Shown piece by piece: positions 5,839-56,995 of a stretch of 64,000 bases of DNA. Made by a program: the position numbers and the translations under genes. Under the pieces are notes generated by a model that saw nothing but the letters and a program-made list of their open reading frames with translations, had not been told where the DNA came from and made no database searches. The stretch comes from Bugula neritina. Its lineage: Eukaryota > Bryozoa > Gymnolaemata > Cheilostomatida > Bugulidae. The DNA lies in the NCBI GenBank assembly GCA_964035545.1, contig OZ037768.1, positions 1,601,501-1,665,500 of the forward strand, written 5' to 3'. Numbering within the stretch: position 1 is the first letter of the stretch; each line of letters opens with the position of its first letter.

Positions 5839-7999
5839 TCAAATACTAACAGAAAAGAAAAAGACACAAAATTGTAATGTAAAATAAAAACACTTTCTAT
5901 GCGTAGAGGTCATTTGAAAAGGATACGGCTTCAGTTGCTCTGCAAAGTTCTTGATGTCTTGTTCAACATTCTCCTATAAAGTATAGAAACATAGACAAGT
6001 AAATATAAGAGATCAAAGTGTTACCTCAACATGCTTCACACCTGTGCATCTTCTGACTTAGTAATTCTAACCAACATAGTATTTTATACACTACAGAAAT
6101 ATTATACTCTGCGTGTGAAGACAAAATTGTCCAAAAAGCTACTAGTTAACCTTACATAATGCATGCATAGAGCACTTGCCTATCTTATAAAATTTACTTT
6201 GTCTGTTACACACTTTTTATACACTTATACCATTCACTATAACCAGTTAATATAAAGTTTCATACACCACTGAGCTCTACACCACAATACTTACAGAAGA
6301 CACTGAGTTCTACACCACAATACTTATAGAAGACACTGAGCTCTACACCACAATACTTACAGAACACACTGAGCTCTACACCACAATGCTTACATAAGAC
6401 ACTGAGCTCTACACCACGATAGTTGCAGACGACACTGAGCTCTACACCACAATACTTACAGCTACAGAAGTCAGAACACTGAGCTCTACAAGATGAGAAG
6501 CCGACACTTGCTCCAGGTTATTGTCTTGAGTATTGCCAGGTTGTATCAACTTGAATATAGTAGATATGGTGACCTTCATTTTACCTCTTTTGTACAGGAA
6601 ACCCCGGGCCACAAACTCGTAGTCAAATCTAACAAGTAGAAGTAAAAGATACTGGCATATATGAACAATGAATAAAAATGAGTGAGATGTAAGAACACCT
6701 GAGCAATGACAAAGGAATGACGATATGGAATTTGTTAAATGCAAGTTTTAAATTAAAAGGGGAAAAGTCTAAAAAGCACATCTAGCATCGCAAGGATTTG
6801 TGTAACTCAGTTATCATGAAATTATGAATATTCATACTCAATAGAGAAATCAATAAGTATCAATGAAGTACCATTCACAGGTTACTACACTTCCTTTACA
6901 ATCAATACACTAAGCACTTTAAGTGAACATTAATTCAAAATTAGAGACAAAACTATAACTTAATGCGCTTCTATCAACTATAATACTGATAAATCAAAGG
7001 TTAACATTACCAGCATGATTATGAAAAGTTTGTGTACAAAACTGCAAAATATATGACTTGTATTTTCTCACATCAACTGCAGCAAACACGCTGAAGCCCA
7101 TGTAATACCAAAGGTAAATATTAGGCAGATGTTAGAAACAAACCGGAAGCCCATATCTGCCAGAAACTTGGTGATATTATCAGAGACGGCGGCTTCTATG
7201 TAAGATCTGACGGGGATGTCTGGGGTCTTGTTCATGTCATTACCTACGTACCTGACGTGCCTGCAACATAGTTTAGTATTTTACTTACCCACACATAATA
7301 CCCACACATAATATCCACACATTGTACCCACATATAATACCCACACATTGTACCCACGCATTGTAAATAACATAAACATGAAAATGATAACAAAATGTCA
7401 ATCTGACATATAATTATACAATGAGAACTTGACACACACAATAAGAGCTCGTACCATGGCCTGTCATTATGGTGCAAGGCATGACGGACATTTAGCTTGA
7501 ATGACTGGTCCACACCACCTAAAACATTATCAATATATTTAAAGCCGAAACATAATGATGGAGACGTTATTCATGTCATGTTTTATTAAAATTAATGCAA
7601 GCAAGCATTTTCACTTTTTTGAATTATAATTGTGTTGATATAAGATACCAACACAATTAGTGACATGTAATGGAGTACATACACTATAAGATATCAACAT
7701 AATCAGTGACGTGTAATGGAGTACATATGTATTAGTGACGTGTAATGGAGCACATACGTACTAGTGACGTGTAATGGAGTACATACGTACTAGTGACGTG
7801 TAATGGAGTACATACGTAAAGTGTAAACCATTTCGTGGTCATCAAATTGTTCAGAGCCGGTCTCTGAGTTGTCACAGAGCCCTTGTAATCGATGCTTTAG
7901 CGCTTCTCGGTGCTGATTGAGAACGCTACCTTGTAGAAGCCATTCATGTGATGGAATGAGCTGATTATTGGCAGCTGTCTTCCAGAAGTCTTGCATCAT
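5839..7999 (-). CDS. MED18: Mediator complex subunit 18
   Basis: Subunit of the Mediator head module, which links activators to RNA polymerase II in the nucleus. Five minus exons join in phase: 7999-7816, 7518-7455, 7260-7144, 6628-6460 and 5973-5839. The protein is 222 aa, close to the roughly 208 aa of vertebrate MED18. Family blocks appear in the expected order: EWLLQGSVL and LQGLCDN near residues 20-45, DHEMVYTLR, a PWH-RYVGND block at exon 2/3, FLADMGFRFDYEFVARG, KMKVTISTIFKL-PGN, SHLVELSVL, then IKNFAEQLKP. Homology is clear up to EQLKP. After it the frame reads a Phe-rich tail of about 29 residues to a TGA at 5839-5841, where relatives have a short LEKID-type end. That tail may be real, or a further 3' exon may be missed. 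Introns 1 and 4 begin with minisatellites that repeat the splice donor. It is divergent from the SKA2-like gene. Confidence 0.9.
6262..6459 (-). repeat. Donor-anchored minisatellite, 33-bp unit, MED18 intron 4
   Basis: Six units fill the start of intron 4 directly after exon 4. Each unit (minus strand) carries TGTAGAGCTCAGTGT followed by a donor-like GTAAGTATTGTGG. The same bases TGTAGAGCTCAGTGT occur inside exon 4, where they encode VELSV, so the unit appears to be a copy of the exon 4-intron 4 junction. Three of the intronic units keep an exact GTAAGTATTG. Confidence 0.85.
7268..7366 (-). repeat. Short minisatellite near the 3' end of MED18 intron 2
   Basis: A 14-16-bp unit, TGTGGGTA(T/C)(A/T)AT on the minus strand, is repeated about seven times. 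It ends some 10-20 bases before the acceptor of exon 3 at 7261. Confidence 0.7.
7662..7815 (-). repeat. Donor-anchored minisatellite, 29-bp unit, MED18 intron 1
   Basis: On the minus strand exon 1 ends CTTTAC and is followed at once by GTATGTACTCCATTACACG. This 29-bp motif recurs about five times, and most copies begin with AC|GTATGT, so each carries a copy of the 5' splice site. Confidence 0.85.
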
Positions 8000-9219
8000 A
8001 TCTGAATTTCTGGAGAATATAAACCGCTGGCTAAAACAACCAACACTAGCTAAAAGTCCTGTTGACTTGAGCGTCTACTCTCTTGACTAGTTTGAATTGA
8101 GTTGATGTTTAACCAGTGACTTGAAAACTGTATGTCAAACTCAATGTGAATGTGTAACTGTATTTGAAATTTAACTTTAGTCTTCAAGTTCAAGTTTTAA
8201 GTTTAGGCATCAAAATCTGAAAATCAATTAATTATTTCAACAGTAAAAGAAAGTATAACTAATTCATTGTTGGTGATAAACTGCACGTTATTGATATTGT
8301 ATAAAAACTAAAATCAAAACTCATAAATCATTAAACAAGATAATATTAACATTGAATTTAATGGTGAAAAGCACAAGTTTACTTTTTGTAATTGTTTCAA
8401 ACTTTTAGTTAGACTTAGTTCTAACCTCCGATAATCATGCGTTGTCGGTATGTATTAGCTCATAATATTAACTTATCGTAGAATAAAAACTATTCTAGTG
8501 AGGACAGCAATTTGCTTATAAGTCCACCAAAACACATTGTCATTCGATTGAACTATCGAATGGTTCCACTTATATTTCTTTAAAGTAAATGAATGAACTT
8601 CCTAACCTGTGAACAAGTATTCAAATCGAAGTCACAGTGAACATTTGTAAAATAACGTATAGTTATATACAATTGTATTTTAAATAAACTAAAATTGAGT
8701 ATTTATTTTAGTTTAAGTTGTTAAAATTGTTAACTGAATCAGTAATGAAATGATCAATCGCAATGATTATCATTACTAATACTAATAGTAATAGTAATAC
8801 TAATACTAATAGTCAATAAAATTGAAATAAAAATTAAAATATACTTGCACTTGCTAAGCCTAAGGTTAAGTAAAACTAAAACTAAATGTAATAGTAATAC
8901 TTATACTAATACTATTACTGTAATACTAATAGTAATAGAGCTTTAAGGTTATTTAAGTTACTTATACTTATACTTATAGTAATAGTTTAGTAATACTAAT
9001 ACTAATAGTCTATTAGTATTAGTATTATGATTAATCTTAATCTATTAGTCTAATAGATTAAGATTAACCATAATACTAAAAGTAATAAACTATTAGTATT
9101 ACTAAACTATTACCATAAGTAACTTGCTGTGCAATGGTATTAATGGATAATATTTTATTAAGGGAACCACATATTTTTTTGCAGCCAACACATTTAAAGT
9201 AAATAAAAAACCCGACAAA
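8000..9219. other. Divergent spacer between MED18 and the SKA2-like gene, with TAATAC-type repeats and two palindromes
   Basis: This must hold both promoters, but I see no recognisable core-promoter motif. From about 8760 to 9115 it is made of interspersed ACTAATACTAATAG runs. Two strong inverted repeats sit at 8991-9027 (18-bp arms, 1-base centre) and 9032-9066 (16-bp arms, 3-base loop). No coding exon is seen. Confidence 0.5.
8991..9066. repeat. Two adjacent AT-rich palindromes
   Basis: The first is TAATACTAATACTAATAG facing its exact reverse complement over one base. The second is TAATCTTAATCTATTA facing its complement over GTC. Both could extrude as hairpins in the shared upstream region of two divergent genes. 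Confidence 0.75.
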
Positions 9220-11428
9220 ATGGCCGTGAGTGATTTGGATAGTCAAAGTATGGTAAAAGCTGTGGTGGATCTTGAAGGCATGGTAAGATTATCCAACCAG
9301 TTTTCTAGTTTACTTATGTTATTGCCAAGGTAACCCTGATTTTGTTCATCTCTCAACAGTCCATCTATCAACAGTTCATCTCTCAACAGTTTATTTCTCA
9401 ACAATTCATCTCTCAACAGTTCATCTCTCAACAGTTTATTTCTCAACAGCTCAACTGTGACCTGTTCTCAACTTCTCACTAAGTAAATTATGTTGATAAC
9501 TATTTCTCTAATCATCATTAATTGTCCATTAATTTGTAGTTTGTATCCACCGATAAGAATCTATCAGGCCTGGAGAAGAAAATAGATATTCAGTATTCAC
9601 ACATATTCAATGATGATGACTCTATAAAAGATAACCTGGTAATTTCAAACTAGTACATTTCTTTTGAAATATTCACTTGTAAAACTAAAAACCTAATGAT
9701 GTGTTATATATGTTGGAGTTATTTTCTTTTGTTCAAGTTTTTGAAGGCAATACAACTTCTAATGTGGTGTATGAGGATTTTCCCTTTGAGTTATAGTAAT
9801 ACTATATTACTTGATCATACAAAGAAATGTTCTGTAGTGATGTAGCATTATGCTGTAATGTAATTTATTTCAGAGAAATCCAGTGAAAGTGTTCAAGAGA
9901 TTAAATGAAGTTAAGGAGGAATTTAGTAAAATTAAAGAAGACGTCTTGGAAATACAAAAGATGCAAGCAGAGGCTTTGAATAATGTGAAAGTAGAACTCG
10001 AAAAGATGGTGACATCTTTATCAGCGTTAGACAATAAAGTATTACACAGTGAGGTGTGTACAGTTGCGTAGTATTACACAGTGAGGTGTGTACAGTTGTG
10101 TAGTATTATATAGTGAGGTGTGTACAGTTGTGTAGTGTTACACAGTGAGGTGTGTACAGTTGTGTTGTATTACACAGTGAGGTGTGTACAGTTGTGTAGT
10201 ATTACACAGTGAGGTGTGTACAGTTGCGTAGTATTACACAGTGAGGTGTGTACAGTTGTGTAGTATTACACAGTGAGGTGTGTATAGTTGTGTAGTATTA
10301 CACAGTGAGGTGTGTACAGTTGTGTAGTATTACACAGTGAGGTGTGTACAGTTGTGTAGTGTTACACAGTGAGGTGTGTACAATTGTGTTGTATTACACA
10401 GTGAGGTGTGTACAGTTGTGTTGTGTTACACAGTGAGGTGTGTACAGTTGTGTAGTATTACACAGTGAGGTGTGTACAGTTGTGTAGTATTACACAGTGA
10501 GGTGCTACATGCATATGTGCAGTATGTTTATAGTCACCTCAAGGTAATGTCTCTGTTTTACTTCATTTATAAATAGTTATGTAAATTACACCGCTGCTCC
10601 CGAAGGAGCGCTGCCTATAGTCAGCTGAGTGTTTGATTGACATATAAGTAAACACTGCTAACTATTTCTACACACTGCCCTGGTGTGGCTATATTTAGTA
10701 CAAAAGTGGAATATGTTGGCTTTCTCCTCCATGCCAAGTTGAGGATGTAGTGCTATGTGTAGTGTTGAATTACATTTAATTCTGTAGTTATATTAACTTT
10801 GTATGTTATACAACGTAAAACAATATTATGTTATAAGAATATTAAATTGTTTGATATATATATTTATTTTAAATTCCACCATCTATGTCTATTATTGTAT
10901 TAATTCTCCTGTTTAATATCTATGCATGTAATATATTGTATACGTGTAGTATATTGTATACGTGTAATATATTGTATACGTGTAGTAAATTGTATACGTG
11001 TAATATATTGTATGCATGTAGTATATTGTATACGTGTAATATATTGTATACGTGTAATATATTGTATACATGTAGTAAATTGTATACGTGTAATATATTG
11101 TATACGTGTAATATATTGTATATGTGTAATATATTGTATACATGTAATATATTGTATACATGTAATATATTGTATACGTGTAATATATTGTATACGTGTA
11201 ATATATTGTATACGTGTAATATATTGTATACGTGTAATATATTGTATACGTGTAATATATTCTATGCATGTTGTGTCGTAGGACTCAGTTAGCACTGAAG
11301 AAACTCATTTGTTGAAGTTATTAGATTTTATGGCTGCCAAAACAAGTAATCAAGCAGAGTTATCTGCTCATGGTGATGCCTCAACCTCTACAAACTCTAC
11401 CCAAGACACACCAACCTCTACAAACTGA
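9220..11428 (+). CDS. SKA2: SKA2-like spindle and kinetochore-associated subunit
   Basis: SKA2 with SKA1 and SKA3 forms the coiled-coil Ska complex that couples kinetochores to spindle microtubules. Four exons join in phase 0: 9220-9282, 9540-9638, 9874-10053 and 11282-11428, giving 162 aa. Residues about 15-40 read VVDLEGMFVSTDKNLSGLEKK, followed by a second helix with IQYSHIF. Then comes the family hallmark NPVKVFKRLNEVKEEFSKIK, which matches SKA2 NPV-LL--L--VK--Y in position and spacing. A further heptad stretch runs to about residue 110, and the tail is Ser/Thr/Asn-rich. The length exceeds vertebrate SKA2 (about 120 aa) because of this tail. The assignment rests on the NPV block and coiled-coil layout and is less certain than for MED18. 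Exon 3 ends at the first copy of a 32-bp array that repeats its donor. Confidence 0.7.
9345..9455 (+). repeat. 15-bp minisatellite in SKA2-like intron 1
   Basis: About seven copies of TCTCAACAGTTCATC vary by one or two bases. The copies contain CAACAG, an acceptor-like trinucleotide, but the array lies 85 bases before the true acceptor at 9539. Confidence 0.8.
10038..10505 (+). repeat. Donor-anchored minisatellite, 32-bp unit, exon 3/intron 3 of the SKA2-like gene
   Basis: Fifteen copies run with almost no divergence. The first copy straddles the junction: the exon bases GTATTACACAGTGAG, then the donor GTGTGTACAG. Every later copy repeats those exon bases and the donor inside the intron. Confidence 0.95.
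10919..11265 (+). repeat. 18-bp minisatellite close to the acceptor of SKA2-like exon 4
   Basis: About 19 copies of TGTAATATATTGTATACG run up to about 16 bases before the AG at 11280-11281. Because 18 is a multiple of three, long open frames appear on both strands; they are repeat artefacts. Confidence 0.95.
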
Positions 11429-12673: not shown

Positions 12674-15600
12674 CTATTTATGTTTTAAAGTTGGGGAAGA
12701 GAAACTCTGTTTACTGGGAGGTATATTTTCTCCAGTGTCTGTGGTAATTTCTATGAGAGGTAAAATATTGGAATTGGCTAATTTGCTTTTCTTCTCAGCT
12801 TTAGAGAGTTGCCCTTCCGGTGCAGTAGCTGAGGGAGATAATGTTTTTAAGGTCGAAGTCTCGGAACTGCCTAGTAGCCTTGGTATTGCTGGGGTACTGA
12901 CGCACATTACTATACTATCTATGGCCAAACGCTCTTTTGCCGAAGGTTTGCTGTGCATAAGGTCCTTGATCTTCTGCAGCGGACTCGTACAGCTGTTGGA
13001 TTTCAAGTTACTCACGTCAGAAGCACTCTTGGTAATGTTCTTGTCGATATTGCGAATTGTTCGTGCAGACTTTGGAAATGATTTACACTTTTTTAGTGTC
13101 TTAATACAACTTTGACTGCCACACAGCTTTGCCCACTGCAAGGCGTTCATGTTTCTGGTGTAGTCGGTGAGCTCGGTGTTGGCATCTGAAACAAATACAA
13201 GCAGCATGTTATGACTCATCAAGCAGCGTGTTATGACTCATCAGGCAGCATGTTATGATTCCAATATATATTATTTGCAGAAAATTTTAAATCATCTATT
13301 TGTTTTCATCACATGAAATAGGAAAATAATGCTAACTAATAGAAAGTTCATTGACACCACTAATAATTCAATAACAATTAATCATACACACAGAGTTCCT
13401 CTCCATTAGCATACTGCATAAACTTATTACTGTCAACTTGATTTATTGAAAAGTAATAAACACAGTACTGCAGATTAAATGCAAACTACTTAAGATGAGG
13501 CTAAAAGTATGTCTGGGCCAACCCTGTCAAATCTCTACCTTTAAGCAACAGATTAAACTGAATATGCTACGTCGCAACCTTCTAGTACACATTGACTTTG
13601 ATTGTGCCAACAGCTAAGTGTTGCAAGCTCAAATTCTTGCAGAACAATCTGCTTTAGTTTCCCTAATTAGTGAAATCATAAAAATACTCATCACTTTACT
13701 GTCTCAGTGTTCCCCTTACCCTTCAGGAGACATATTGCTGTGTCATGTGACATATTGCTGTGTCATGTGACATATTGCTGTGTCATGTGACATGTTTCTG
13801 TGTCATGTGACATGTTGCTGTGTCATGTGAAATATTGCTAATACACAGGTATACAGTCTACAGGTATACAGTATACAGGTACACAGTCTACAGGTATACA
13901 GTCTACAGGTATACATGTAAGACCTGAATGATTAGCACCAGGGAGTGACATGTTTTCAGCCAAATGTAATTGGAAAATACTCATTAGTATTCCGTATGAC
14001 CTATTGAGTACGTTACAGCAATAAACAGCATGCTGGGTAACAATTGCTAGAAACTACAGTGCAATCATTAGAGAGTCAATTTGTGAGCATGAAGTTGTGT
14101 GCACTTGTACAGATTAACTACAATATGTCAAACTAGCCTAACCAACGAGTATTAGAGATATTTAAAATGTACGTAACAAACGTCACATACATAAACAGAA
14201 GCTCCAACATATTTTTCACTATGAGCGCGATTATAGTGAATGTGTCATGATTTAAGTTAGTATTTGTATGCCCTTGATATTAGGAAAACCAAACCTGCAC
14301 AATATGCCCAACACAATAATGTGCTACTGAGCATTGAACTATAAGGAAGTTTTAGCTCATTGCACATTACATACTGATGATTAAAGGAATTCAGTGGAAA
14401 TGCTGGTTTTACAACTTTTGAATATTACAGCTTGTACATGTATAATATATTATTGTAATATTTCATAGAATAAAGACTTGCTAAAACTAAGCTGGTGATG
14501 AAAAGCTTTTGATTAAGCTGCAGACTGTGTCTCTCACCATATGCTGGACACATGGTTTGGGGGGCTTTAAAGTAGCACAACATAAATGACCTTGCTATGG
14601 TTAGAACCCATGACCTAGGAAAAAGTGTGTGTTATACAACGCCAATTCTCTAACCCCTAGACTGAATGCTCTCTGCTATAATAGTATAATATATCGTAAA
14701 ATACTAGATAACATTCTATTACAGAAAACACAATTGACTATTTGATTTAATAAGATCACTACCAGAATGAGCATTAACAATTTTTTATCAATTTCCACAA
14801 AAGTGGGACATACTTAGTATGTTATGTTAGACAGAGTCATCATTTCTCCTTAAGCAGCTTCTGAAGTACAAATAACATTATATAACAGTGTTAACTTCCC
14901 AGACATGATGGTAACCTTAATTTATATTTATATTACAGCAGGCTTACAGAAACCTTATAACCTAAGACTAATTTATGCAGATATACTAGTCGGTATATTT
15001 TCACACAAAAACAGACAACAAACTAGTGTGCAAATATAAGTTTTAATTAATCATAACATTTGTCAGGTGACAGTGTGAAGATCAGCTGAACAATGAAAGC
15101 TGCGAGTAGTTTACTAGCCTGTGTGCTTTAAATAAAGCTTCAGCGGCTGAAAACTAACTTGCAGTTTACGTAACTTAACAGGTCCTAGTGCTAACTTTAC
15201 AGACTTAAATTCAATAGAAAGTAATTGATTGACTTTGTTTACATTGTGTAAGTCAACTCCCATCCTCCCTGATCTAATTTATCTGATCCGATTACAAAAG
15301 CCAACAGTAGACCAGGTCAACTAACTCAGCTCCTAGCTGTCACATGACCACATGGAAATGGTGCCAACTATATACAATGGTAACACGGCCTCTCCAGTAA
15401 AGTTGTACAAAGCAAACCAGCTTGTACCAATTCTTATAGCAGATGTCTCTGGACTGAGTTAACCTGTAGTTCTTATCACCCTTTTCATCTCAAATTGAGG
15501 GTGTAATGTAGGGTGTCCCACACTGAGACTGCATAAAATCATCAACTGAAATTCAATTTCCACCCATCTCCAACAATTTTGTTCAGTTTTTTTAAATAGA

Positions 15601-18600
15601 AAAACAATCTTCAAAGTCTGTACAGAATAATTCGAGTGATGATTGAATTTATGAACTTGAAAATGGATGAAAGAGTAAGAAATGCAGTTAGGTGAAAGGA
15701 GTGGATGCAGAAAAGCCTTATAAAAGGAGTGTATACAGACCTGCCTTGAGTAAAAGCTCCACACAGGAATGATGATCATGTATTGCTGCCTTGATAAGAG
15801 CTGTGAAGCCATTCTTGTTGGTTTGGTCTATATTGCTGCCGTATTCTAGAAGCTTCTTAGTAACTTGATGGTGACCTGTAACCAGAAGGGTAAGCATGTC
15901 TAGCAACGCTGACTGAAAGAGGGATAATGTTCATTTACGTGTAAACATTATATATTATTTATTAATATATTAAATATAAAATACTTCTACATAAGATTAT
16001 TCCAAAAATTTCATATTTAAAATATTTAATGGTGATATAATATCATGCAGCTTCTAGATATTCATACAACTGCTATTATATGTCGTTGGGGTGAGGAAGA
16101 CTCATATTGACATAAGTAGAGAGGTTGTAAAAACATCACTAAGAAAAGTAAATAAAAATATAGCCTCATTCCAAATAGCTAAATCCACCATTTCCTGCCT
16201 AGTGGCATTGTTGCAAGCTTTTTTTGAAGTGGTCAGGTCAATAACTAACACACGCTGCCAGTTGTCTGCTGCCGGCATCCTAGACTACCCCTCCCTGCAA
16301 CCAGTTCTACTACCACATCATTGCACTAGATCCAGGGTCCTTTACTTGGTCCATAATGCCTCTTACTATTACTATGCTATAGCACATGCAAGTAATAGTA
16401 CAAGGTAATGAAAAAACAATTATAATTATTTCATCTATTTAAAACTGCTTTAGCTTCAAAGGTCAAACGAAAGTCAAACAAGTGAAGGATGTGAAAGTCA
16501 ACTGACCAACTTGTACAAGATCTAGGGATAGAAATAATGAAAACATTCTCATCCATTTCCCCAGACTTTTGGCAAATTTTTCAGCCAACAAAAATAACTC
16601 AAATATTCCTCAAAATATTTATCTAACTTGCACACCGTTACACTTCAATCTGGGTGACTTTCCTCACAATGTCAAGCTATGTTTGACGTTAGACCAACGA
16701 CAGAGGTGGATGTAGCATTTCAAAAGGGAAGTATGAAAAATAAGTTATGCTGCTGCTAGAATGTCATCCCAAACCCCAAACCAAAATTCATATAACTATT
16801 AAATAACTCGGGCTATTGAAATTGTTTCATCACTACCCTTGAATGTAAAAGCACTGATAAATCTATGACAAGAACACATGTATGTAATTTGAAATTATCT
16901 TTCTTCCAACCTGCATTGGTGTAACAAAACTGCTTAATTTTGCTCTGAGTGTTTCATTACACATGAAAGAAAAACAAAATTCTATAATAATCAAATCCCG
17001 AGGCCGTTCCATAAAAATTAAGAAACATACATTGATTGATTGATTGATTGATTGCATATCACAGACATGACAACCCATTGTCATGCCTGTGATATGCAAT
17101 AAATACTGGCTGTAATATAAGTAGGCATGAACAAAAATGAAAGAAAAGAAACATACACATGCTGAGCGTTTGCTTAATCAGTCTAAGATGGCAGCAAAGT
17201 TGCAATATGGTCGACGTTTTCTGCCTTTACTAAAATTGAAGAAGTCAAAAATATTAGTCACACAAGCTCGCCCACCAAAGATGAGCCCACCTACCAAGGA
17301 TAAGCCCCGCCACCAAGTATAAGCCCACCCACCAAGGAAAAGCCCACCCACCAAGGAAAAGCCCACCCACCAAGGAAAAGCCCACCTACTAAAAATAAGC
17401 CTGCTTACAAAGGATAAGCCCCCCCCCCCTACCAAGTATAAGCCCACCCACCAAGGAAAAGCCCGCCTACTAAGGACATGACCACCTACCTAATGACACA
17501 GCATAGATAAGGGGAGTGTTCCCTTCGGAGTCAGCCAAGTTCACATCTGGAACGTCTGTAGCCAACAACAACTCAACCATGTTGGCATCACCCATAGCGG
17601 CAGCAAAACTTATGCAAGTCTAAAATTAAGAACATAACAGTCAAGCGGATTACTGTCTATTATTACCACGCTTTGTTTGAAATCAATTGCTGATGAGCAT
17701 ACATAGACTGTGAGAAATACTAGCTATATAATTATATTGCTGGGATATTAAATGATTATATAATGTACGGTAAATCTTATATTATATGACAATTGAAATA
17801 AATAGAACATGTTGAAATATCCAACAGAAACAGAAAATTGAATCATTGCGTGTCTTCAGAGTAAAATATTTTTCTAATAATTATATCATAGTAGCAGTAG
17901 TAGTAGTAGCAGTAGTAGTAGTAGCAGCAGCAGTGGCGGTAGTGGTGGTAGCGGTAGTGGTAGTAGTGGTAGTAGTAGTAGTGGTAGGAGTGGTAGGAGT
18001 GGTAGTAGTAGTAGTAGTAGCAGTAGCATTAGCAGTAGCAGTAGCAGTAGCAGTAGCAGTAGCAGTAACAGTAGCAGTAGCAGCAGCAGAAGTAATAGTA
18101 GTAGAGTAGTAGTAGTATTAGTAGTAGTAGAGTGGTAGTAGTAGTACTAGTAGTAGTGCAGTGATAGTGCTACTAATGGTAATAGTACTGGTAACCTAGT
18201 AGTTACCAGAACATACATACATACATATATAGGTAATATAGCCTATAGGCCTATAATATTGCTTAAGTGTACTTATACAACAGGCAGGTTAAATCTATAA
18301 TGTATATATGCCACTTGTGTTGATATTGATATATATTTAATGCAATGGTTTTTGTATATTTGAAGTAGAAAATTTATTAGCAAGCATTGATTTACATTAT
18401 AACACTAATGCTATCTGGAATGGTAGAATATACCTGATATTTACAACATGGACCTTATTTTGAGCATGTGCATGGCACTTGTTCATGACATAGCACACAC
18501 TGTTTGCCAGGGGGCGGGGTGGGGGAGGTTTGAACAACTTTACAGGATCTGGTGCTTCTTTGAAAACTTTTTTTATGCAAATGTTATTTTAAATTAAAAA

Positions 18601-26617: not shown

Positions 26618-29600
26618 ATGTGGAATAAACTCCGGGCACACAGTTTGTTCAAAGCTGCATCAACAACTAGCTTATACCGAAGAAATATAAACACTAAGAT
26701 TAGTAAACTTATTAGAAGTCGGGGCTTAGTTGCCCCACTCGTACTGTTTACTGCTGGAGCTGGCACCTATTACTATCAAGATGAGCCCACGAGGAGGCAA
26801 CTTCGAGTAACTTTGCAAGGAGTGAATCGGCTTGTAAGGTTAGCGTGAATATTTTCTACATCATTTATAATAGTTATCAGCTTAATCATTTATCAACATT
26901 GTATTTTTTCATTTTATTTTTGCATAGTCATAGCTATATATTCTTTACTCTTTATTTGAAGCCGTATTATAGATCATAGTTACTACATAGATTAAGTCAC
27001 ATGTGATGAAGTATGAGTTTGAATTACCTGCGTTTCAGATCGGTCATAACTGGGGCTATAGTGACTTTAGATTATAAAATATCTCTGCATGATGTGACAG
27101 ATGAAAGTGTAGGCTATACTGAGAGACTGAATGCCGTACATAAAAGAGCTGCCGAGAGAATTCTCTGGTGCTGCCTCAAGAATGGAGGTCTCTACATCAA
27201 GTTTGGTCAAGGATTAGTCATAATGAATCACATTCTTCCCCGTCCATATCTGGAAACTCTAGTCGTGTTGCAGGATAAAGTACTGACTAGGGGCCCCCAT
27301 GAGGTGAGCCTGGCTAACTTTTATACAGCTCTAGGAATTGGAGTTTACAATTTTATTTTGTGTTATTGTCCAAAATATAGCAAATATATTGCGCAAGCAT
27401 CTGTGAAAATCTCAACTATCTTTACATTGTCGTGTGAGATTAGGCTGACTGGGGTTTTATGTTGAACTTTACCTTAAACAAATTTGATGAAATGTAAATA
27501 CTCATTCAGATGCCTTGCTTGTTGCCATCAGTAATTTTTGTAGAGTTGAATTCTAGCCTCTCAAATAAGAGCTCATAATTCCTATTTTTGTCACTGCTGC
27601 TTTACTAGCTTCAATTTTCTTTAAACCTGACTTGTCTTGAAGTGCCTCAACCCGGTTTACAGCTCTCGAGTTTGTCTTGATTTGTTCAGGTGGAGACTTT
27701 GTTTAAAGAAGAGTTTGGTAAGCTGCCCAGCGAGGTATTTCGTGAGTTTGACGAGGAACCGATAGCCGCTGCCAGCTTAGCTCAGGTTCACAAGGCCGTT
27801 ACTCACACTGGTGACGAAGTAGCTGTTAAGGTCTGTATGTTTATTAACCACGATTTTATAGGACTAAGTCCAAGCATACTGTAAGATATTATCAGATTGT
27901 GTTCTGTCAATTCAACAGTTGAATATTTGAATACAACAATCGGTCATGTTGGCTTCTATTCGTGGGAAGCACTTATACAATTACTCTCACAACGTTATTT
28001 TTTAAAACTTTCAATTTTCTTTAACTTTGTAATGCAAGGCTTTATGCATAATAAATCTAGTTTTTTATAATATAAAATACTATTTGATGAACGCAACATT
28101 TATATTTTAATAATGTGTGAGTAATTAGTGTTAGACTCCATTTGAATAGGGCAGATAACTCTATGATACCAAAATGTGTTGGAATCCCTACACTAAGCTT
28201 GTTGTTGGTTGCAGGTTCAGTATATAGATTTACAAGACAGATTTCTGGGAGATATGTTCACAATGAGAATATTAGCCATACTTCTTGGAAAGGTTTATCC
28301 AAAGTTAGACTTTGCAGATATATTGAAGGTAATAAATGTCCCTCTTACATATTGTGTACTTACACTCATATTAAACGTACATTTCACCACTGTTACACTT
28401 ACACCCCTGTTACATGTACACTACACTCCTGTTACACTCCTATTCTAGTGCTGTGTAATTTAGCCAAGTTCTTCGATTTGAATTGTAGGAACTAAAGGGT
28501 AACATGGCAAGAGAGTTGGACTTTGTAGCTGAGGCTACTAATGCAGAGAAGTGTGCCCAGGATCTCTCTCACCTGCCTTATGTATACGTACCCAAGGTGC
28601 ACTGGAACTTGACCACCAAGGTACGTGTGGTACATACACAGCACACTAGTCTATATACAGTATATATAGTATATGTACAACAACACTGCTTAAGGTGCAG
28701 TAAATACTGTTGCCATGGAAATATTTGTAATATTTAAACAGCTTTACCAAAGTTGAGGTGTAGAATGTTGGTTGAGGAGTCAATAGATAATACCTAGAGT
28801 TGTCTACTCATATGGGATGTGCTGGTATATATCTGCATAGGCTACTGTCAAGACCTGATATTGTCAAGGATATTGCATTGCTTGTGATATGAGTGATGAT
28901 AACCTCTCAACCGATGTTTTTCTAGAAAATTCTCACCACTGAATTTATACATGGAGTGAAAATATCAAATAAACAAGCATTGGCAGAAGCTGGACTGTCC
29001 CTACGTGACGTAAGTGCATTCACTATTTAGTAGTTGTGTCCCCACTGTACGTAAGTATAATTCACTGATTATAAGTTGTGTCCTCACTGTATGTAAGTAG
29101 TTCACTGATTAGTAGTTGTGTCCCCACTGTACGTAAGTAGTTCACTAATTAGTAGTTGTGTGCCCACTATACGTAATGGTATTCTCCGATTAGTAATTGT
29201 ATTCTCGCTGAATGTGTTACTTCTGTGTTTCAGATAGACAATAAACTAGTCAGATGCTTTGCTGATCAGATCTTTCACTCGGGGCACGTGCATGCGGACC
29301 CTCACCCTGGCAACTGTAAGTATAAAGGCTACGTGGTGGGTTGCTCTTGGTTAATTTACATGTATTTTGAACATGTATCCAAACAATTGTGTCAATGTTC
29401 GGATTTTTCTAAATCCTGAAAATTATTTGCTGAGGAGAATTATTGTCAAATTGAAAACTTAGTTGTACTTTACCACATCTGTTCCTGGTAAACTCCGAGA
29501 AAACTCAGTAACTCTGTAGTGGATTGTTGTAAAGTGAAATCTCAGACATGTTGGTTCTTGAAAAGCGGGCTGTATTGAAGATGTTGTATTTTTACCTCTA

Positions 29601-31489
29601 TAGTAAATGTGTGCAAATCAGTGAAGTGCTTGACTTTACGTTTGTGATTTTAGTATACGTGAGAAAAGATAAGCAGGGAAAGGCTGAGTTAGTGCTGTTG
29701 GACCATGGACTATATGAATATATGGAAGCCACTGAAAGGATAGCCTTAGCCAACATGTTTAAAGCCATCGTACTTAAGGATGAGGAGGCAATGCGTCTGC
29801 ATGCGCACACAATGAATGTAGACGGTGCGTGTAGAACTGGAACTTGGTTTAATAATGTGCTGAAATAATAGATTTGTGTGGTAGTTTGTTGTCTGTGAAT
29901 TAACAGGTTTAGTTGTTTTGTCAAGAAAAATCGTGATGTTTCTTGAGTCATCAGCATTTAATTACTTACTGTTACATCATCATAATATAGTTTGTCTTAG
30001 CGTCGGTGACTAGACTGATTTTGTGTACTGTTTGATACACTTCCTGTTCCTGTTGGACATGAGTATGTCAAAGATGAACTGCTCAACTCTGTTCTAGTTT
30101 CGCCAGAAATGTTCCCAAATATTTGACTCCACGAGTGGCAATGAGATGGAGATGCTAACCTTAGGATGTAACGCTGTGTTGTAGAATGGCATCTGTTGGC
30201 TTGTTGCCTCACTCAGAAATATGTGGCCACCAAATCTAACCCGCCGCCTGATTGGAGGAAGATTAAAAATAAATCTGATTGGAAGAAGCTCTCCGAACAG
30301 GAAAAGAAGGAGATTCGGGATTATTTTGAAGATTTACATTCGAGGATGTTGGACGTTATGAAGCAGATGCCAAAACCTCTCATGCTGATTATGAGGTGCT
30401 GACACTTACTATTATTATCATGTAAGGCTAGTGTTGATTGGTGGAATTCTCTTTGAGTGTTTCACACATGGCAGCACCAATTCGCAACTTTTTAAAGATT
30501 TTCACCAGTTAGATTGTTCGGTGTACTGTAGTAGTGTGTACTGTAGTAGTGTGTACTGTAGTGGTGTGTACTGTAGTAGTATACTGTAGTAGTATACTGT
30601 AGTAGTGTGTACTGTAGTGGTGTGTACTGTAGTAGTGTGTACTGTAGTAGTATACTGTGGTAGTGTGGTACTGTAGTAGTGTGTACTGTAAATGCTGTAG
30701 GAATCTGAACACCATACGATCTATACACCGTGACCATGGCAACCTCGTCAACAGATACATTATCATGGCCCGCAGGTTGGTTTACTGTTACTTCTCTTAC
30801 TGCAGCATTATTACATACAGACTGTAGTTTGGGCTGTTACCTGCCTGGGACTAGACTGTATTTATGTGTGTCTTTATTAGATGTCTAAACGTCATTGAAG
30901 TAGATAAGTTTGTGGAAGTGTGCAATAGTTTTGGTGTACAGTTACCCTGAACTACACAATGACCCTTGTTATGTGCTGGATTACTAAATAGCTGTTAGTA
31001 CATCATAGTAGAATATTCTATCATACTCCTATAACATTGTTAATCTTTTCTACCGTACCATTGTTTCCAGTGCTGTGGAAGGGGCAGAGAAATCCACACG
31101 GCAGGGACACGGGTTGCTGTCAATAGCCAAAAGTTACAAAGAAAGGTTCATGTTTGAATACCATCTAAAGTGAGCGTCACACTTGTTAAATGTTGCATTT
31201 GTACAACTGATAAGAATTTGGTTTTTCTTGTTATAATGTATACCAAGTCATTAGTAACTCGATGTTGAAAAAGACTGCATCTTCCCTCAAAGTCATTTCA
31301 TTTATTTATCCTCTCCAATGATTCTAAATAACCCAATATTTGATAATTTGTGATTTTTTTTCCACCATTATTTGGTTTAGATTGGACTCTATACGTTCCT
31401 GGCTACTTGTGAAAGCTTTGACGGTGCTGGTGTGGCTTGGCAGAGTGCCCGATTTTGAAGCGACACTCAATAGAAACTCACCTCAGTAA
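26618..31489 (+). CDS. ADCK5: ADCK5, UbiB/ADCK-family atypical kinase
   Basis: Mitochondrial-type UbiB protein-kinase-like protein; relatives support coenzyme Q and lipid homeostasis. Twelve exons keep frame: 26618-26838, 27039-27303, 27690-27830, 28215-28328, 28489-28620, 28926-29009, 29234-29315, 29654-29824, 30185-30395, 30701-30775, 31071-31169 and 31381-31489, giving 567 aa (human ADCK5 is about 580). A basic N-terminus and hydrophobic segment ([17 protein letters not shown]) fit mitochondrial import. UbiB signatures are intact: KxGQ (K128-Q131), the Ala-rich loop AAAS (188-191), VAVK (Lys209), ExD (256-258), HADPHPGN (catalytic Asp341, Asn346) and DHG (363-365) in place of DFG. Wording such as [12 protein letters not shown] and LLDHGLY fits ADCK5 rather than ADCK1 or ADCK2. 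The TAA lies inside CAGTAAGT, a perfect donor context. Intron 6 begins with a donor-repeating array. Confidence 0.92.
29010..29215 (+). repeat. Donor-anchored minisatellite, 40-42-bp unit, ADCK5 intron 6
   Basis: Exon 6 ends CCTACGTGAC and intron 6 starts GTAAGTGCATTCACT. Units starting (T)AC|GTAAGT recur at 29051, 29093 and 29133, with a decayed GTAATG at 29173. The four exact GTAAGT copies are spaced 40-42 bases apart. Confidence 0.9.
30518..30690 (+). repeat. GTACTGTAGTAGTGT minisatellite before ADCK5 exon 10
   Basis: About twelve copies of a 12-15-bp unit ending in TACTGTAG. The real acceptor of exon 10 is GTACTGTAAATGCTGTAG at 30700, so the units resemble the 3' splice site that follows them. 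Confidence 0.8.
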
Positions 31490-46600: not shown

Positions 46601-49600
46601 CCCATGGCGGTCAAATGGAGATCATGATTAAGACGAAACAGTCCAACAATCCGCAGTTCCAGTTTCTCAACTTTGAGCACCATCTCAACCCGTACTACAA
46701 GCACCAGGTGAGTTTTCTATCTTCTAATAACCAGAGCAAACAGTGGACAGCTACTCTTGCTGTAAAGATGCTAAGCTGTCAGTTCAAGGGGTGTATTATG
46801 GTCAGGGGGTTAATTACTATAGAGATATATTATATTACTATAGAGTTATATTATGTTACTATAGAATTATATTATATTACTATATAGAATTATATTATAT
46901 TACTATAGAGATATATTATGTTACTATAGAGATATATAATGTTACTATATAGATATATTATGCTACTATGTAGATATATTATGTTACTATGTAGATATAT
47001 TATGTTACTATAGAGATATATTATGTTTGTTTTCCATTTCAGGTGTACATGATAAAGAATGGCAGATATAACCCTGACATACACAACAAACCCCCTCCTC
47101 CACCCTCTAATACAAGTAGGTTACCTGACTCCTTACTAGACAAGTAGGTTACCTGACTCCTTACTAGACAAGTAGGTTACCTGACTCCTTACTAGACAAG
47201 TAGGTTACCTGACTCTTTACTAGACAAGTAGGTTACCTGACTCTTTACCAGACAAGTAGGTTACCTGACTCCTTACTAGACAAGTAGGTTACCTGACTCC
47301 TTACTAGACAAGTAGGTTACCTGACTCTTTACTAGACAAGTCTGCTAAATGTCTAGCTAGGTGTTCTTATTCGGTATTCTTAGCAAAAGCTGAAGGCCTA
47401 CATGTTTTGATACTAGATACGTGTATAAGGAGTTACCTTCTCTTTGTCATTTTGCTTCAATTAGTTTGTGAGATAACAAAAGTAAATATATACTCAGAGC
47501 CATAGCCTAAGTTTCCTTCTTGCTCTCTATAGTCGGGTGGTTGATCTACTACTCGGGGTTACATGTTTATCTTACTCATGGAGTAGAGTGGATGAGTAAC
47601 GGAGCTTGTTGTACTCTGCAGTGGATTCTAGTAATGACAGCGAGGATGAAGGGGACTCCAGTGGATACCTCCACCCGAGTCTACTCGCTGCCAAGACAGC
47701 GCCGTCTACCCACCAATCAGAGCTCACCTCCTTGCCTCACGTCCAGTACACGCAGTCTCAGCTGGAGAACACCTCCTACGGCAGACTGCTGAAGAAGATC
47801 TCCATCAACCAGCCTCTGATGTCTAACAGTCCTCAGCGTATCAGCACACCGACCTTCAGGTGACCTTCCTTCACCCTCTACTCGTATACATGTATACACT
47901 GTCATAGTACTACCCTGTAGTATAGTGTTACACTACAGTTTAGTAACGCAGTATTACACTGTAACGTAGTTCTCTTGATTATTGCAACGGGGCATTTAAT
48001 CGCTGACCAATTAGGAAATATTGTTGTGAATTATTTTACTCAGCAGCTGCATGACTGATGAATTATAACAGGGGTGGCTCTCTCCAGGGGGTTATTCTGT
48101 CATGGCCAACCCCAGTGTTGACTAGTCCTATGAGTAGTGTGGTTACCAGTTACTAGCACTAGTCAATGTACTGTGAATGGTACTATTACCTAGTTATAGT
48201 TATTAGAATAAGGTAACTGGAAATCAAACTCGTACTATGGGAAGATAACTCTCATAGCTTTCAGTCATAATTATTCTCTGAATTGGAGTGTATTCCACAG
48301 TACACGATGTATTCCACAGTACAAGATGTATTCCACAGTACACAATGTATTCTACAGTACACGTTGTATTACACAGTACACGATGTATTCCACAGTACAC
48401 GATGTATTCCACAGTACACAATGTATTCTACAGTACACGTTGTATTACACAGTACACGATGTATTCCACAGTACACGATGTATTCCACAGTACACGATGT
48501 ATTCCACAGTACACGATGTATTACATTCATACTCTTTTCAGTACACATTGATTATTTCTCCTTGTTATTTTCTGCAATAATTCTGCATGTCACATTTTCA
48601 CTGAGTTCTCATCTGCTTTGGTGTTTGGATGTATACGGATCTCTTCAACACAGCTGGTCATGTGATGCGTACGTTCACAATCTCATACCTGGCCGCATCA
48701 CATGACTCATCCTTTCACATCGTCCTCCGCAATGAATCAACCTGACTTCGCTCTGATCATTTATTTCTCATTTGTAACCGAAATAAATTATATTTGGTAA
48801 TCTGCCTACAAATAAATTTAAATAGCTGAATATTTCAACTTGAAACGTTTGCTTCCTGTCTGTTAGTCAGCTGGTGATACTGACATGTTTGGTGTTGAGT
48901 TATCTACCGGATTACGTGTAGAAGAGGGTGCTGCAGTTATATATCAGATGTGTGCATTCATAGCAGTGACTTGCCAACTCGTTCACATATCTGAGGGAAT
49001 GATGCGCGTCACTCGAAGAAGACTCGTATTGATTTATTGCACGTCGTAGTGGCAGTGTGCCATCACATCGTGTTTGAAGATTACTCCATTTACCAGGTTA
49101 CCAGGCAATCAATTTGGATTAATTTTGTTTTTCTCTTCATTTGACAAACGATTTGTAGTTGTTAAATTTGGGTGTTTTAAGCCAGGTGACATAATTTTTA
49201 TGTCATTTTAAATTAATTTTAGATTTAATTGGCGATGGCAATCGCATTAACCCCCACTTCTCTACAGTCTTTATTCCAACTGTTTTTCCTAAGAAAAATA
49301 TCTCAGATTTTTCCGTCCAACCCAGTTATAAGGATTCCTTGTCTGTTATTTATTGAAATTTGTATTTCACGAAGTAATTTCCTCTGTTTCTCTAGTGACA
49401 CGGATAGCAATAGTCAGCCCGTTGCCAGTGAAGGGGCCGTATCAGCCGCCACCCACCAATATGCTCACACAGGGGAGGCCACTGAGGCTAACGGCTACTC
49501 GTACAGCGCAGATGCTGCCGCCTACTACTCTAACTATTATAATACCTACGATGTGGAGCCAGCCTCTAGCAGGTAAAGTTACCTGCACACTGTCTACCTG

Positions 49601-52600
49601 CCGTTTGTTTGTCCTTCATTTCTCTGATATACTGATATACTCCAGTCTATGATGTGCTGAACTGTACCACTTTGCGGCATATTGTAGCACTGTGTGATAT
49701 TGTGTGACATACTGTAGCACTGTGTGACATACTGCAGCACTGTGTGATATTGTGTGACATACTGTAGCACTGTGTGACATACTATAGTACTGTGTGACAT
49801 ATTGTCTGACATACTGTAGACCCCCGTCTCCCCCTGCTGACGTAAAGCCGCTGATAGACCGGCTAATCAGCTACGTCAAGAAGGACGGTGAAGCGTTTGA
49901 GAAGCAAGTTCTGTCACGTAAAGACGACAGGTTTTCCTTCCTTCAGCCCGGCAGTGATTACTATGATTATTATGTGTGGAGAAAGCATGTGGAGCTGGTA
50001 GGTGAACTCTCCTTGCACGTGCTCAGTGAACCTTCTTGTCCCATGATTACATGTTTACTTTCACAGTTACTCTAATGATACGTACACGCTGTCATTAGAG
50101 CTGCAGGTCATGCTGCATAGCCGTGTTCGGTCAGCATTTGCCCTACTTAATACCAGGAATATTCCAGGGCAGCTATTTGACACCTTTCTAGATGCTAAGA
50201 GTTTAGTGTGTGAACATTTGGTTTAGTCTCGGTTTCATACCCAGTCTTGTATCGACAGGGGCTAGTAGAAGACAACTCCAAATCAAAAGGAGTGAGTTTC
50301 AGCATAAAGCAGAAGGAGCCCGAGGCGAGCTCAATCAGCGCGAGCCGAGTGGCTCTGCCGGTGGACCCCGAGAGTGATGACGAGGAGGGCAGCAGCACTG
50401 CAGGTGACCCTCGCTGACGTAGATATTCAACCTCACTCTCAGCATTAGGCGTGCTAGATGACATCATCTATATATTATATATATATGTATATCTGTATGT
50501 TGTTGCATTCCAAGTGTGTATTTGTAACTTTAGATGGAAGCCATCCAAGTCACAGCGCGCATACGAGTAACAGTGCTGCAGTAACCGTCTCTCAGTCTAA
50601 CACCAGCGGCAGGGTGGAGGAGAGACCTCCCCTCTCCGAGGAGTCTGTGCAGAAGAAGATAGGTGAGAGACATGACTAGTGTGTTACGTGTGCTATATAC
50701 ATGTGTGTGTTATATTTCCTTTGAGGATCAGTATTGTGTGGCCACACATACTCCAGTTACCCCCCGCCAAGTGTATCATCTTGAAAACTCGTGTTGTTTC
50801 AGCCGAGCAGAAACTGAGAGACAAGCTTGCTGCCGCTGCCAGAGAAAAGATGACGCAGGTGACGCAGAACACCAAGGACAAGTCTCTGCAGGCCGAGCGC
50901 AAGCGCAAGGCCGCCATGTTTGTTACGATGTTGAAGTCGAAACAGAAGAGCTCTGCTGGCGCTCCGACTGCACCCACCTCCGGTAAGTTATCTGTGTCAT
51001 GTGACGGGTAAGTAGTACGTGTCATGTGACAGGTAAGTAGTACGTGTCATGTGACAGGTAAGTAGTACGTGTCATGTGACAGGTAAGTAGTATGTGTCAT
51101 GTGACGGGTACGTTATCTGTGTCATGTGACAGGTAAGTAGTACGTGTCATGTGACAGGTAAGTAGTATGTGTCATGTGACAGGTCTGGTTGGAAGGTAAG
51201 CAGGTGTGCCTATCATTCTGTTGATGGATCAGTTTCCTTGAACTACTGAATATCACCGACTCTCTAGTCTCACCGTCATGTCATTAACTGTGTGTCTGTC
51301 TGTGTGGCGCAGGGCAAGAGTTACCTCCTCCCGACCCTCAAAGACTCTCCTCCCGAGGCAACTCCTCCCACTCTCAGCGACGTGACCACCACTCTGACGT
51401 GTCGTACCGTCTCCATGACAACCAGCACCACAGTCACAGCAGGTCGATGTCAAGGTCACCTCCATCCGCCTACTCTGTTAAAGTTAACAGGTAAGTAATG
51501 CTGTTAAAGTGACTAGGTAAGTGATGCTGTTAAAGTGACTAGGTAAGTGATGCTGTTAAAGTGACTAGGTAAGTAATGCTGTTAAAGTGACTAGGTAAGT
51601 GATGCTGTTAAAGTGACTAGGTAAGTGGTGCTGTTAAAGTGAATAGGTAAGTAATGCTGTTAAAGTGAATAGGTAAGTGATGCTGTTATAATAAATAGGT
51701 AAGTGATGCTGTTAAAGCGAATAGGTAAGTGATGCTGTTATGTTGAAGTTCACAGCTTGCTTATGTCGTGTGATCTCATGAATCCTTCACGCCCAAACAT
51801 TCAGCTCTTTTTGTTGCTTTTTTATATTGTTTTCTATACTTGCATTATTTGAAAGTTATTTTGTGTCTGCACAAGTTTCACTTTATGAAGAGGGGGGAGG
51901 CTGTGTTAACGTTTGATATAGCAGGTGTAGAGAGTCGTATGATAGTCGCATGATGGCCAATTTGCAGTGCACTCTGGTGACACTGGTGAGTGAGTGGACT
52001 GTGAAAAGGTTTCAGTGCATGACTGCCTGCATCAAGTTCAGTTTGACCAAAGTTAATTGTTGTGTGAGCGGTGTGCGCGAGTTTAAGGCTATGCCAGTGC
52101 AAGCCTCTTCATGCTGGTCCTCATGCAATGATTAATGAAGTCATTAGAATTTAATGGTTTAGTGACTTTTATGGTGCGTATTAATTACTTTGTGTCCTCA
52201 CGTTATGTAATTACTGGTGTGTGTCTACCAATGAGTACTGTGTGCTTATTCTAGGAGCAGGGAGTCTCATTCACGCTCCAGCAGACACAATGACTCATAC
52301 TCTAGCAGCGGCAGCAGGCACAATGACTCATACTCTAGCAGCGGCAGCAGACACTCTGGTAGGAGGCGGGCAGACGATAGAAGTCATCATAGTAGGAGAC
52401 GTCGGTCGCCCTCCCCTACACATTCATCTAAAGCCAAGTCTAAGCACCGAGTTTCACAGTCTACTGATAGTGTGAATAGAGAGTAAGTGTTGGGGTGTTA
52501 CCATGGTAACATCCAATGCAGTGTCAGCGGCTTATAGTTTGCAATTCGTATATTTACATTTGCTATTCTTCCGCATGTCATAATTTTAAAGACACAATTG

Positions 52601-53133: not shown

Positions 53134-53329
53134 ATTTTGTTATAAATTTATGAACCATGTAAAATACTTTTTAATGTAAATAGTAATTATATGTAAATAC
53201 TCCGGAATCAATGTTTATTTGTGATTTTATATCGAAGGTGCAACTTATTATGTACAAGATTATTTTGTATTATAAATTGGGTTATAAAACCACTGCCATA
53301 ATTTGAAATTTTGCAGTGCAACTGCTTTT

Positions 53330-53344
53330 AATAAATTCAATAAA
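53330..53344 (+). terminator. Poly(A) signals of SFSWAP
   Basis: AATAAA at 53330-53335 and again at 53339-53344, about 200 bases after the TGA at 53133. Confidence 0.7.
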
Positions 53345-54911: not shown

Positions 54912-55037
54912 CGCAAAAATAAATATGGTCAATGTAATTTTCATGAAACGCTTCAACAAACCCTTATATATAAAATATAACATATTTTATATATAAGGGT
55001 TTGTTGAAGCGTTTCATTGACCATATTTATTTTTGCG
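54912..55037. mobile_element. Fold-back element with 56-bp arms
   Basis: The arms match exactly from CGCAAAAATAAATATGGTCA to ACCCTTATATATAAAATAT around a 3-base centre (AAC). The only difference is an 11-base insertion (TAATTTTCATG) in the left arm. It looks like a young hairpin-type MITE or a recent inverted duplication. Confidence 0.8.
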
Positions 55038-56894
55038 ATATTATCTTAAACTGCCACTTCTAAACAACATTATTCTAAGTTTACTGCTGTGAAATTTTTA
55101 CTTTACTATACAAAGCAAAATGCTATTTGCAACTATTTCATATAGCACCTGAAGTTTATAACAGGCGAAATGAGAATATTAAAAGTATAATGGCTTGGAG
55201 AGAGTATAAACTATATAATACAGACATTAGAGATAATTCACTATAAAGTTCATTAGAATGCAGCTCGTAGTACAAGTTGTGACTTGTAATTGAGATTCTG
55301 ACGTCAATAAGGGGCACAACCTGCAGTGCTCATCTGAAATTGCTAATATTATTATTGTGATGCAAGACTTGATGAACTGCTACATGCAACCATACAGATA
55401 CTATCTTAGCCTTTACAGCTCACATAGTGCACTTAGCTAATCATTAACTCTAGCAACATTCCGTAGGTGTTTCACCTCTATTATCTATAAACTATGAATC
55501 CAAAATCTGTATGTCATAACCTGAGAGATGGACTATATTTTAATATTCAATATTATATCATTTTAATGACTTTTTTCCTACGTTATTATTTTAATGCATA
55601 GTTATATGAAGATCCACATTAAAATAATGCAAACAAGTGGCACTGCATTGAAAAAAACTTGGTGGGAGAAATGACTCTAGTTGATTATTATTAGCTTCAT
55701 CAGTGTCAACACAATGTATCTGATTGCATATGTACTACTTGCATATTAGCCTACATACTTTATATTGAGATATTTTACATTCCATATGCAGAATGAGGCT
55801 AATGTAAATCTTTCACTCCCAGGCTACACAATGTACAGCATTGTGTACAGCATGCTGCTATGCTATTGTTAAGCTTTTGTAGTATATTGGAGTTAATTTC
55901 TAACTTCAACTCTCTCCTCGGCCATGGGTCTAACTCAGGTACAGTGTACTAGAAGCTATGTTTTTGCAAAATTATAAAATTTTAAGTTTGCAAATGCTGG
56001 GTTATTGTTGTTATATTATATTTGACAGCAACTTTTGTACTGATAGTGATACTCGTTATGATAGTGATATTGATGGTGATACTAATAGTTAAGATTGGGT
56101 TTTACTTTTAGTGGTCACTAGGCGAAAGAGACAACGATAAACTGTAGCAAACCCTGCTAAGGCATTTTTATGCTAAAATTATAAAATCCAAGCTCAATTT
56201 AAGCAAAATAGGTTTAACAATAATTGGGTTTAAATAAAGGACTCACATATGGCTGATGTATTTTTCTGAGAGTGTGTAGTGTAATAACTGATGTAGCAGG
56301 GAACATTCTGTTGTATAGTTGGCCTTATGTACTATGAGGGAGGCGGGGAGCTAGAACTAAGAGGCACCCTGTTTGACTATTATTCATAGGCTATACAGCA
56401 TAGCTAGTTGAGATAGTTTATTAAGGCATGTAACTCGGAATATACGTTGGGTAGTATAGTTGTTATGCACTCTATCATAATTAGAAAGGCTGCTACAAGT
56501 GCACGAAGCAGGTGCCCCACAGTGCGAACATCATAACTGCTGAGTAGATTACAAGGAGACAGCGTTGCCTGGGTTAGCAAAATATCATTGAGCTAGTAGT
56601 TATTACTTATTTAATAGATAATAATATAATTGTATTACATAGATCATAGGAAATTGCTGTTCATTGGCTAGCAGAATATTCTCTCTCCTTAACTATATCA
56701 TCGACTAAGTTTTGTTTACTAAAGGTCAAATAAAGATGATTTGAAGAGGCTATTTGTACACCAATACAAATAGAGCCTAGTTACAAATAAGCTAGCTTAT
56801 CTCTACCGATTGTGTTCGATACGTAATGCAACTGAATTTTACTCCGTTGTGTGACTAATCTCCACAACTGCTGGAACATACTACCTACAACAAG

Positions 56895-56995
56895 GTGAGT
56901 GCTATGTCACATGACAACCTAAGTGTGCTGAGTCACATGACAACCTAAGTGTGCTGAGTCACATGACAATGCAAGTGTGCTGTGTCATATAGTCG
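56895..56995 (+). repeat. 26-bp minisatellite starting at a donor-like GTGAGT
   Basis: CCTACAACAAG|GTGAGTGCTATG is followed by three units of (AA)GTGTGCTGAGTCACATGACA. The layout copies the donor-anchored arrays of the coding genes, so 56894 may be the end of a non-coding exon of the PDE8-like gene. Confidence 0.5.

Follow-up and report, generated by a model that had tools for sequence, protein, structure and literature searches.

Minisatellites at exon-intron boundaries are known from lancelets, where the "mirage" minisatellites of Adh3, the globins, troponin C and PGBD5 are reported to have no effect on normal splicing (PMC3087553, PMC3902484). Such elements are recognized as repeats that span the boundary, contain copied exon bases and have units that carry splice signals, and the lancelet units measure 150–160 bp in the globin genes and 10–72 bp in Adh3. 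Intron 7 of human F7 contains 37-bp repeats, the first of which holds the authentic donor (5′ splice site), and of these donors just the one furthest upstream is used, a choice ascribed to an oriented scanning mechanism (PMC6627357). In addition, two further reports deal with intron gain by tandem genomic duplication in potato RdRp (PMC4974935) and with tandem-repeat changes in human genes (PMC2812944). Here, arrays of this kind are described in the bryozoan Bugula neritina, within a window (the whole stretch analyzed) of 64,000 nucleotides at positions 1,601,501–1,665,500 of contig OZ037768.1, from an assembly of 215.8 Mb in 295 contigs. An ELOVL6 frame encoded in the window shares 87% identity with the Bugula neritina protein and 66% with that of Watersipora subatra, which places the host among the bugulid bryozoans. 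Eight introns in the MED18, SKA2, ankyrin-type, ADCK5 and SFSWAP genes start with a tandem array at or near the donor. The kind of element is already known from lancelet mirages and human F7, and what is new is the phylum, the recurrence across unrelated genes and the donor polarity; no report of such junction arrays in a bryozoan was found among the titles and abstract openings of the open-licence literature. F7 is alike in its row of highly similar donor-bearing repeats, but it is one human gene, whereas the bryozoan arrays occur in several genes of a 64-kb window and in cases sampled elsewhere. The host is also a bryozoan rather than a chordate as for the mirages, and splicing is judged here from genome sequence and protein homology in one assembly.

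Arrays were called with Tandem Repeats Finder (TRF), and the offset of each is its start minus the first intron base. Junctions in the window were curated by hand from translated flanks because the ab initio gene finder misread the strand of MED18 in its first version and, in its second, missed both the SFSWAP exon at 47043–47115 and the first donor of SFSWAP intron 12; 16 introns were modeled in this way, 15 picked for holding arrays plus MED18 intron 3. Pfam matches among the predicted window proteins were Med18, SKA2, ABC1, and DRY_EERY plus Surp. The first-pass annotation had proposed that arrays begin at the exon-intron boundary in eight introns, and all eight are present in the TRF listing, with starts from −16 to +13 relative to the 5′ splice site. 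Seven of the junctions have protein-level support and the ankyrin donor is tentative. Exon-tail bases lie inside the repeat unit at six of the eight, clearly so in SKA2 intron 3, SFSWAP intron 13 and MED18 intron 4, which gives these six the boundary-spanning repeat with copied exon bases of a mirage; outside the window the same arrangement is seen in L018, from a test of exon-intron similarity, and by eye in L019 at 4346, where 16 of 20 exon-tail bases recur in the unit. Because exon-tail bases form part of the repeat unit, the seed in the clear cases is a duplication across the junction, rather than an array that formed elsewhere and later reached the junction.

The SKA2 intron 3 array (10038..10504, + strand; donor 10054) has a 32-bp unit repeated 14.6 times and an offset of −16, and all 16 exon-tail bases in its unit are identical to the exon; the SKA2 Pfam match extends just ~7 residues beyond this junction. 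The array of SFSWAP intron 13 (51475..51740, +; donor 51491; 26-bp unit × 10.2; offset −16) likewise includes 16 bp of exon in its unit, 14 of them identical, and in homolog P0122 the junction is spanned by SPPTAYTVKVNR. In MED18 intron 4 (6268..6490, − strand; donor 6459, exon ..HLVELSVLTSVA|GTAAGT; 33-bp unit × 5.9; offset −2), the 5′ part of the unit aligns at 20 bases, with gaps, over a 31-base stretch of exon tail. The MED18 protein, aligned to MED18 chains of the PDB, spans intron 1 and ends three residues before intron 4, and the exon that follows intron 4 is one we take to be MED18. The exon copy is weaker in MED18 intron 1 (7705..7818, −; donor 7815, ..TTTAC|GTATGT; 29-bp unit × 3.9; offset −3) and in SFSWAP intron 6 (47112..47341, +; donor 47116, ..AATACAA|GTAGGT; 28-bp unit × 8.2; offset −4), where the preceding exon overlooked by the gene finder was recovered through alignment to homologs. 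The ADCK5 (ABC1 kinase) intron 6 array (28996..29200, +; donor 29010) has a 40–41-bp unit with ~14 copied exon-tail bases, interrupted by gaps and a mismatch, and its offset is −2 from the 82-bp row of TRF and −14 from the 40-bp row; the ABC1 Pfam match lies on both sides of this junction. SFSWAP intron 12 (50983..51184, +; donor 50983; 25-bp unit × 7.6; unit consensus ACAGGTAAGT) has an offset of +11 by TRF, yet a 16-bp stretch that begins a single base upstream of the donor is found again, with one mismatch, later in the array, and aligning exon tail to unit gave no clear exon copy. The reading frame is the sole basis for the tentative donor (17489) of the array in intron 2 of the ankyrin-type gene (17264..17489, −; 19/57-bp unit; offset +13), and its unit too contains no clear exon copy. 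The array at 13198–13258, considered as the ankyrin array meant by the first-pass annotation, is on the acceptor side of its intron, and the one at 17264–17476 is most likely what was meant. SFSWAP also contains a coding minisatellite, an in-frame 33-bp repeat encoding 11 residues in the RS-rich exon (52279–52354, +), so that its growth accompanies three junction arrays in the same gene.

Donor starts were counted over offsets of −35 to +13, a range fixed only after the window had been inspected, the upper limit being that of the ankyrin case. Two nulls were used, one in which an array is confined to the intron and a more permissive one in which the start of a unit may lie as far as one repeat length (maximum 35 bp) inside the exon. 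In the window, 8 of the 21 arrays, from 15 array-bearing introns, start in this range, with 1.51 expected if confined to the intron (P 5e-5) and 3.68 if an exon start is allowed (P 0.009). The window was chosen for its striking look, an ascertainment, and other stretches therefore weigh more. These are a sample of 25 further 10-kb stretches chosen by place on contigs C1–C8, 20 of them at round coordinates and five from a grid, with uneven placement in that C1 was covered only within its first 5 Mb; the 118 sample introns come from ab initio models made with a finder trained on window and sample. Of the 37 intronic arrays here, 7 have their start at a predicted donor, none of them beyond +11, where 1.34 (intron-confined, P 0.0002) or 3.28 (exon start allowed, P 0.03) would be expected, and window and sample combined give 15 donor starts versus 2.9 or 7.0. 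As a guard against a gene finder that is attracted by repeated donors, 89 non-overlapping sample arrays were excised and re-planted at random non-coding sites, and the second version of the gene finder was re-run 100 times. This relocation control gave a mean of 0.83 donor starts and a maximum of 4 in the 100 runs, versus 6 observed by the identical procedure. The donor starts as listed, under criteria slightly different from those of the relocation count, are in L009, L012, L017, L018 and, twice, L019. Hence the proposal that position is the property common to these arrays, beyond what random placement would give, holds outside the window in which it was made. The two L019 cases are anoctamin junctions, at 4346 and 8366, where homologous proteins run uninterrupted through the position of the first donor.

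These counts also bear on the simplest alternative, namely that arrays fill short introns and so start near donors by coincidence. Two introns are indeed nearly filled, ADCK5 intron 6 (a 193-bp array in a 224-bp intron) and one L019 intron (389 bp of 446 bp), but uniform placement within the actual introns yields only the 1.5 and 1.3 starts given above against the 8 and 7 observed, and the copied exon bases in the units are left without explanation. This alternative, already disfavored by the placement test and the relocation control, is given little credence.

The arrays are polar with respect to the intron. In window and sample there are 15 donor starts versus 3 acceptor ends (one-sided binomial 0.004); in the sample none of the 37 intronic arrays ends within the corresponding range of an acceptor, and in the relocation procedure no acceptor ends were observed versus a mean of 0.56. 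Five arrays overlap the upstream exon by more than 3 bp, while none of the 58 intronic arrays (21 from the window and 37 from the sample) overlaps the downstream exon to that extent. This differs from the lancelet mirages, which affect acceptor boundaries too, a trait that lies outside the definition of a mirage. Arrays on the acceptor side of window introns include one in SFSWAP intron 8 (49661..49819, +), which ends exactly at the acceptor without entering the exon, one in a later ADCK5 intron labeled intron 9 (30520..30690, +), which ends 10 bp before the acceptor, and the ankyrin-type array rejected above (13198..13258, −), which ends 12 bp before an acceptor. A second array in SKA2 intron 3 (10927–11265, +) and one in SFSWAP intron 5 (46814–47027, +) halt 16 and 15 bp short of the acceptor, respectively, as though array growth were limited by the tract upstream of the AG.

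We consider it probable that these are junction-seeded minisatellites whose position is set mainly by the tolerance of splicing, any mutational preference for donors being modest at most. A short tandem duplication would by chance span the exon-intron boundary, taking in the donor, ~5–30 bp of exon tail before it and the opening bases of the intron, and the array would then grow by slippage or unequal exchange. To judge from protein continuity, the 5′-most donor would stay in use, such that the mRNA is unchanged and the intron alone lengthens, and purifying selection on the exon copy would hold the array's left edge in place there, at the junction. Duplications that span an acceptor would be removed or be rarer because a later AG would then have to define the start of the exon. 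Such tolerance predicts both the donor polarity and the copied exon tails, and most cases would need no hot spot because donor duplications are harmless if the 5′-most donor is used.

The repeated units are rich in potential donors. Over the seven window arrays scored (ankyrin left out), the GT is kept in 42 of 46 later copies, so the units carry splice signals as in mirages. The suggestion that each unit repeats the donor is borne out in SKA2 (13/13) and in SFSWAP introns 6 (7/7), 12 (7/7) and 13 (9/9), but there is decay in MED18 intron 1 (2/3), MED18 intron 4 (3/5) and ADCK5 (1/2). Rows of decoy donor sequences are therefore present as had been claimed, while their use as decoys is putative. 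Reading beyond the first donor meets an in-frame stop 1–29 bp later at all seven junctions, and the 33-bp unit is the only one of the seven divisible by three; because of these stops and of the six units that are not multiples of three, a later donor, if used, would lead to a stop or shift the frame. Across the first donor, the protein continues without array-coded residues in SFSWAP, at both L019 anoctamin junctions and at MED18 intron 1, and at SFSWAP introns 6, 12 and 13 it does so without an array-length insertion relative to two homologs, one from Watersipora subatra. The simplest reading of these sequences is that the 5′-most donor wins and that the remaining donors are ignored, in line with the choice reported for human F7 intron 7.

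It might instead be that the spare donors are a selected reservoir, kept because additional binding sites for U1 where the intron begins aid exon definition or transcript protection. Donor 9-mers in the later copies of eleven arrays are indeed less often mismatched than the remainder of the unit (22/837 versus 99/2033, or 21/729 versus 86/1701 without two out-of-register L019 rows), although this count treats homogenized copies as independent. The trend is moreover reversed in MED18 intron 4 (5/45 versus 4/120) and in ADCK5 (7/18 versus 9/64), and L025 retains the poor donor GTTACA equally well. Selection for such a reservoir is accordingly thought improbable.

The arrays of different genes do not go back to a single repeat. 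Among 12 units from different genes the best of 66 pairwise comparisons scored 21, compared with a shuffled maximum of 24, and the five pairs above the shuffled 99th percentile (18.8) are ascribed to common donor-like words. Hence these 66 pairs do not show the similarity between copies in different genes that would mark an introner or other mobile repeat, in agreement with the first-pass annotation. That annotation had also suggested that new introns perhaps form by the duplication of AGGT. On this reading, introns with arrays would be recent products of exon sequence. Such intron birth finds some encouragement in AG|GT and exon-derived bases in several units, and the cases of intron gain by tandem duplication are alike in touching splice signals. 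However, the bryozoan introns lack matching donor and acceptor junctions: for each of the 16 that were curated, the donor junction resembles its own acceptor junction no better than it resembles the junctions of other introns (smallest P 0.13), which gives no sign of a duplicated segment at both splice sites, and at the seven supported junctions the arrays end 33–777 bp before the acceptor. The suggestion is thus unsupported for these introns, and intron birth of this type is regarded as very improbable.

A mutational hot spot is harder to set aside. The claim here is that the exon-intron junction, through R-loops, the donor sequence or a nucleosome edge, favors the start of tandem duplications, and the 15 donor starts do exceed even the permissive expectation of 7.0. 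Furthermore, the motif GGTGAGT-N7-GGTGAGT occurs 40 times in the genome versus 11 for the motif read backwards. The 40 occurrences represent 16 places, three of which abut exon ends with homology to the last residues, those of a galactokinase, an INO80B-like protein (E 0.0005) and an FAD oxidoreductase (just below the Pfam cut-off). By coding score, 6 of the 16 tandem sites (score above 6) are at coding ends, which is not clearly above single motifs (6/25) or reversed-motif controls (6/24 at the motif, 7/24 within 160 bp), and because single and reversed motifs score alike, only the three homology-backed sites are counted, and these in favor of junction-seeded arrays. The window, in addition, was picked for its look, and the sample by itself gives 7 versus 3.3 (P 0.03) with three gene models unsupported. 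The permissive null reduces the donor excess to about two-fold, part of which is window ascertainment, and a junction hot spot is considered unlikely as the main cause. Donor-like tandem arrays are also found away from junctions: a 14-bp array of GGTGAGT units in L004 (~1460–1690), by eye antisense in an intron, was rejected as a junction case as it lies, again by eye, beside an ankyrin-type exon on the opposite strand. L046 looked by eye like an exon and was rejected with a coding score of merely 1.4, and no exon is evident at the tandem site in L001.

Several points weigh against splicing tolerance as the main determinant of array position. The approximately two-fold excess over the permissive null remains, and tolerance alone may not suffice; the relocation null, for its part, allowed no starts inside exons. 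In lancelets both boundaries are duplicated, which indicates that acceptors can tolerate duplication (PMC3087553). The test of exon-to-intron similarity over 117 donors and 115 acceptors gave no separation, with 4 hits versus 4 at a score of at least 22, the acceptor hits being ones that look like simple repeats or sit away from the junction, and the coding score, as seen above, did not distinguish tandem from single GGTGAGT sites. Of the seven sample cases only two, the anoctamin junctions, are verified on both sides. The Pfam match of L012 (TRPM-like) is only downstream of the junction, the VASP-like match of L018 lies elsewhere in the protein and below the cut-off (23.1 versus 25.8 bits), and L017, L020 and L025 are without homology support.

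Two observations concern the assembly. Many protein-kinase frames on smaller contigs (C11, C15, C29, C58, C188 and others) contain several in-frame TAA or TAG codons and seldom TGA, a pattern of a ciliate nuclear code, and the assembly thus seems to contain DNA of an associated ciliate. Gypsy-like retroelement frames were recognized by eye among the predicted proteins of L012 (reverse transcriptase- and integrase-like) and of L015, L027 and L032 (gag-like beginnings).

The 2 verified to 7 predicted cases per 250 kb would extrapolate to roughly 1,700–6,000 introns in 216 Mb. It is a speculative and rather doubtful extension that introns of this bryozoan lineage lengthen chiefly at the 5′ end, through one junction duplication after another, such that thousands would begin with rows of usable donors under a strict first-donor rule. 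Gene predictors can misplace such junctions, as seen at SFSWAP intron 12. For the question of how the spliceosome picks one donor from several near-identical ones spaced by a few dozen bases, the arrays provide many natural tests, and the donor-acceptor polarity could, given RNA and population data, separate mutation bias from splicing tolerance. Mirages, described from individual lancelet genes, thereby become a recurrent trait of a distantly related animal.

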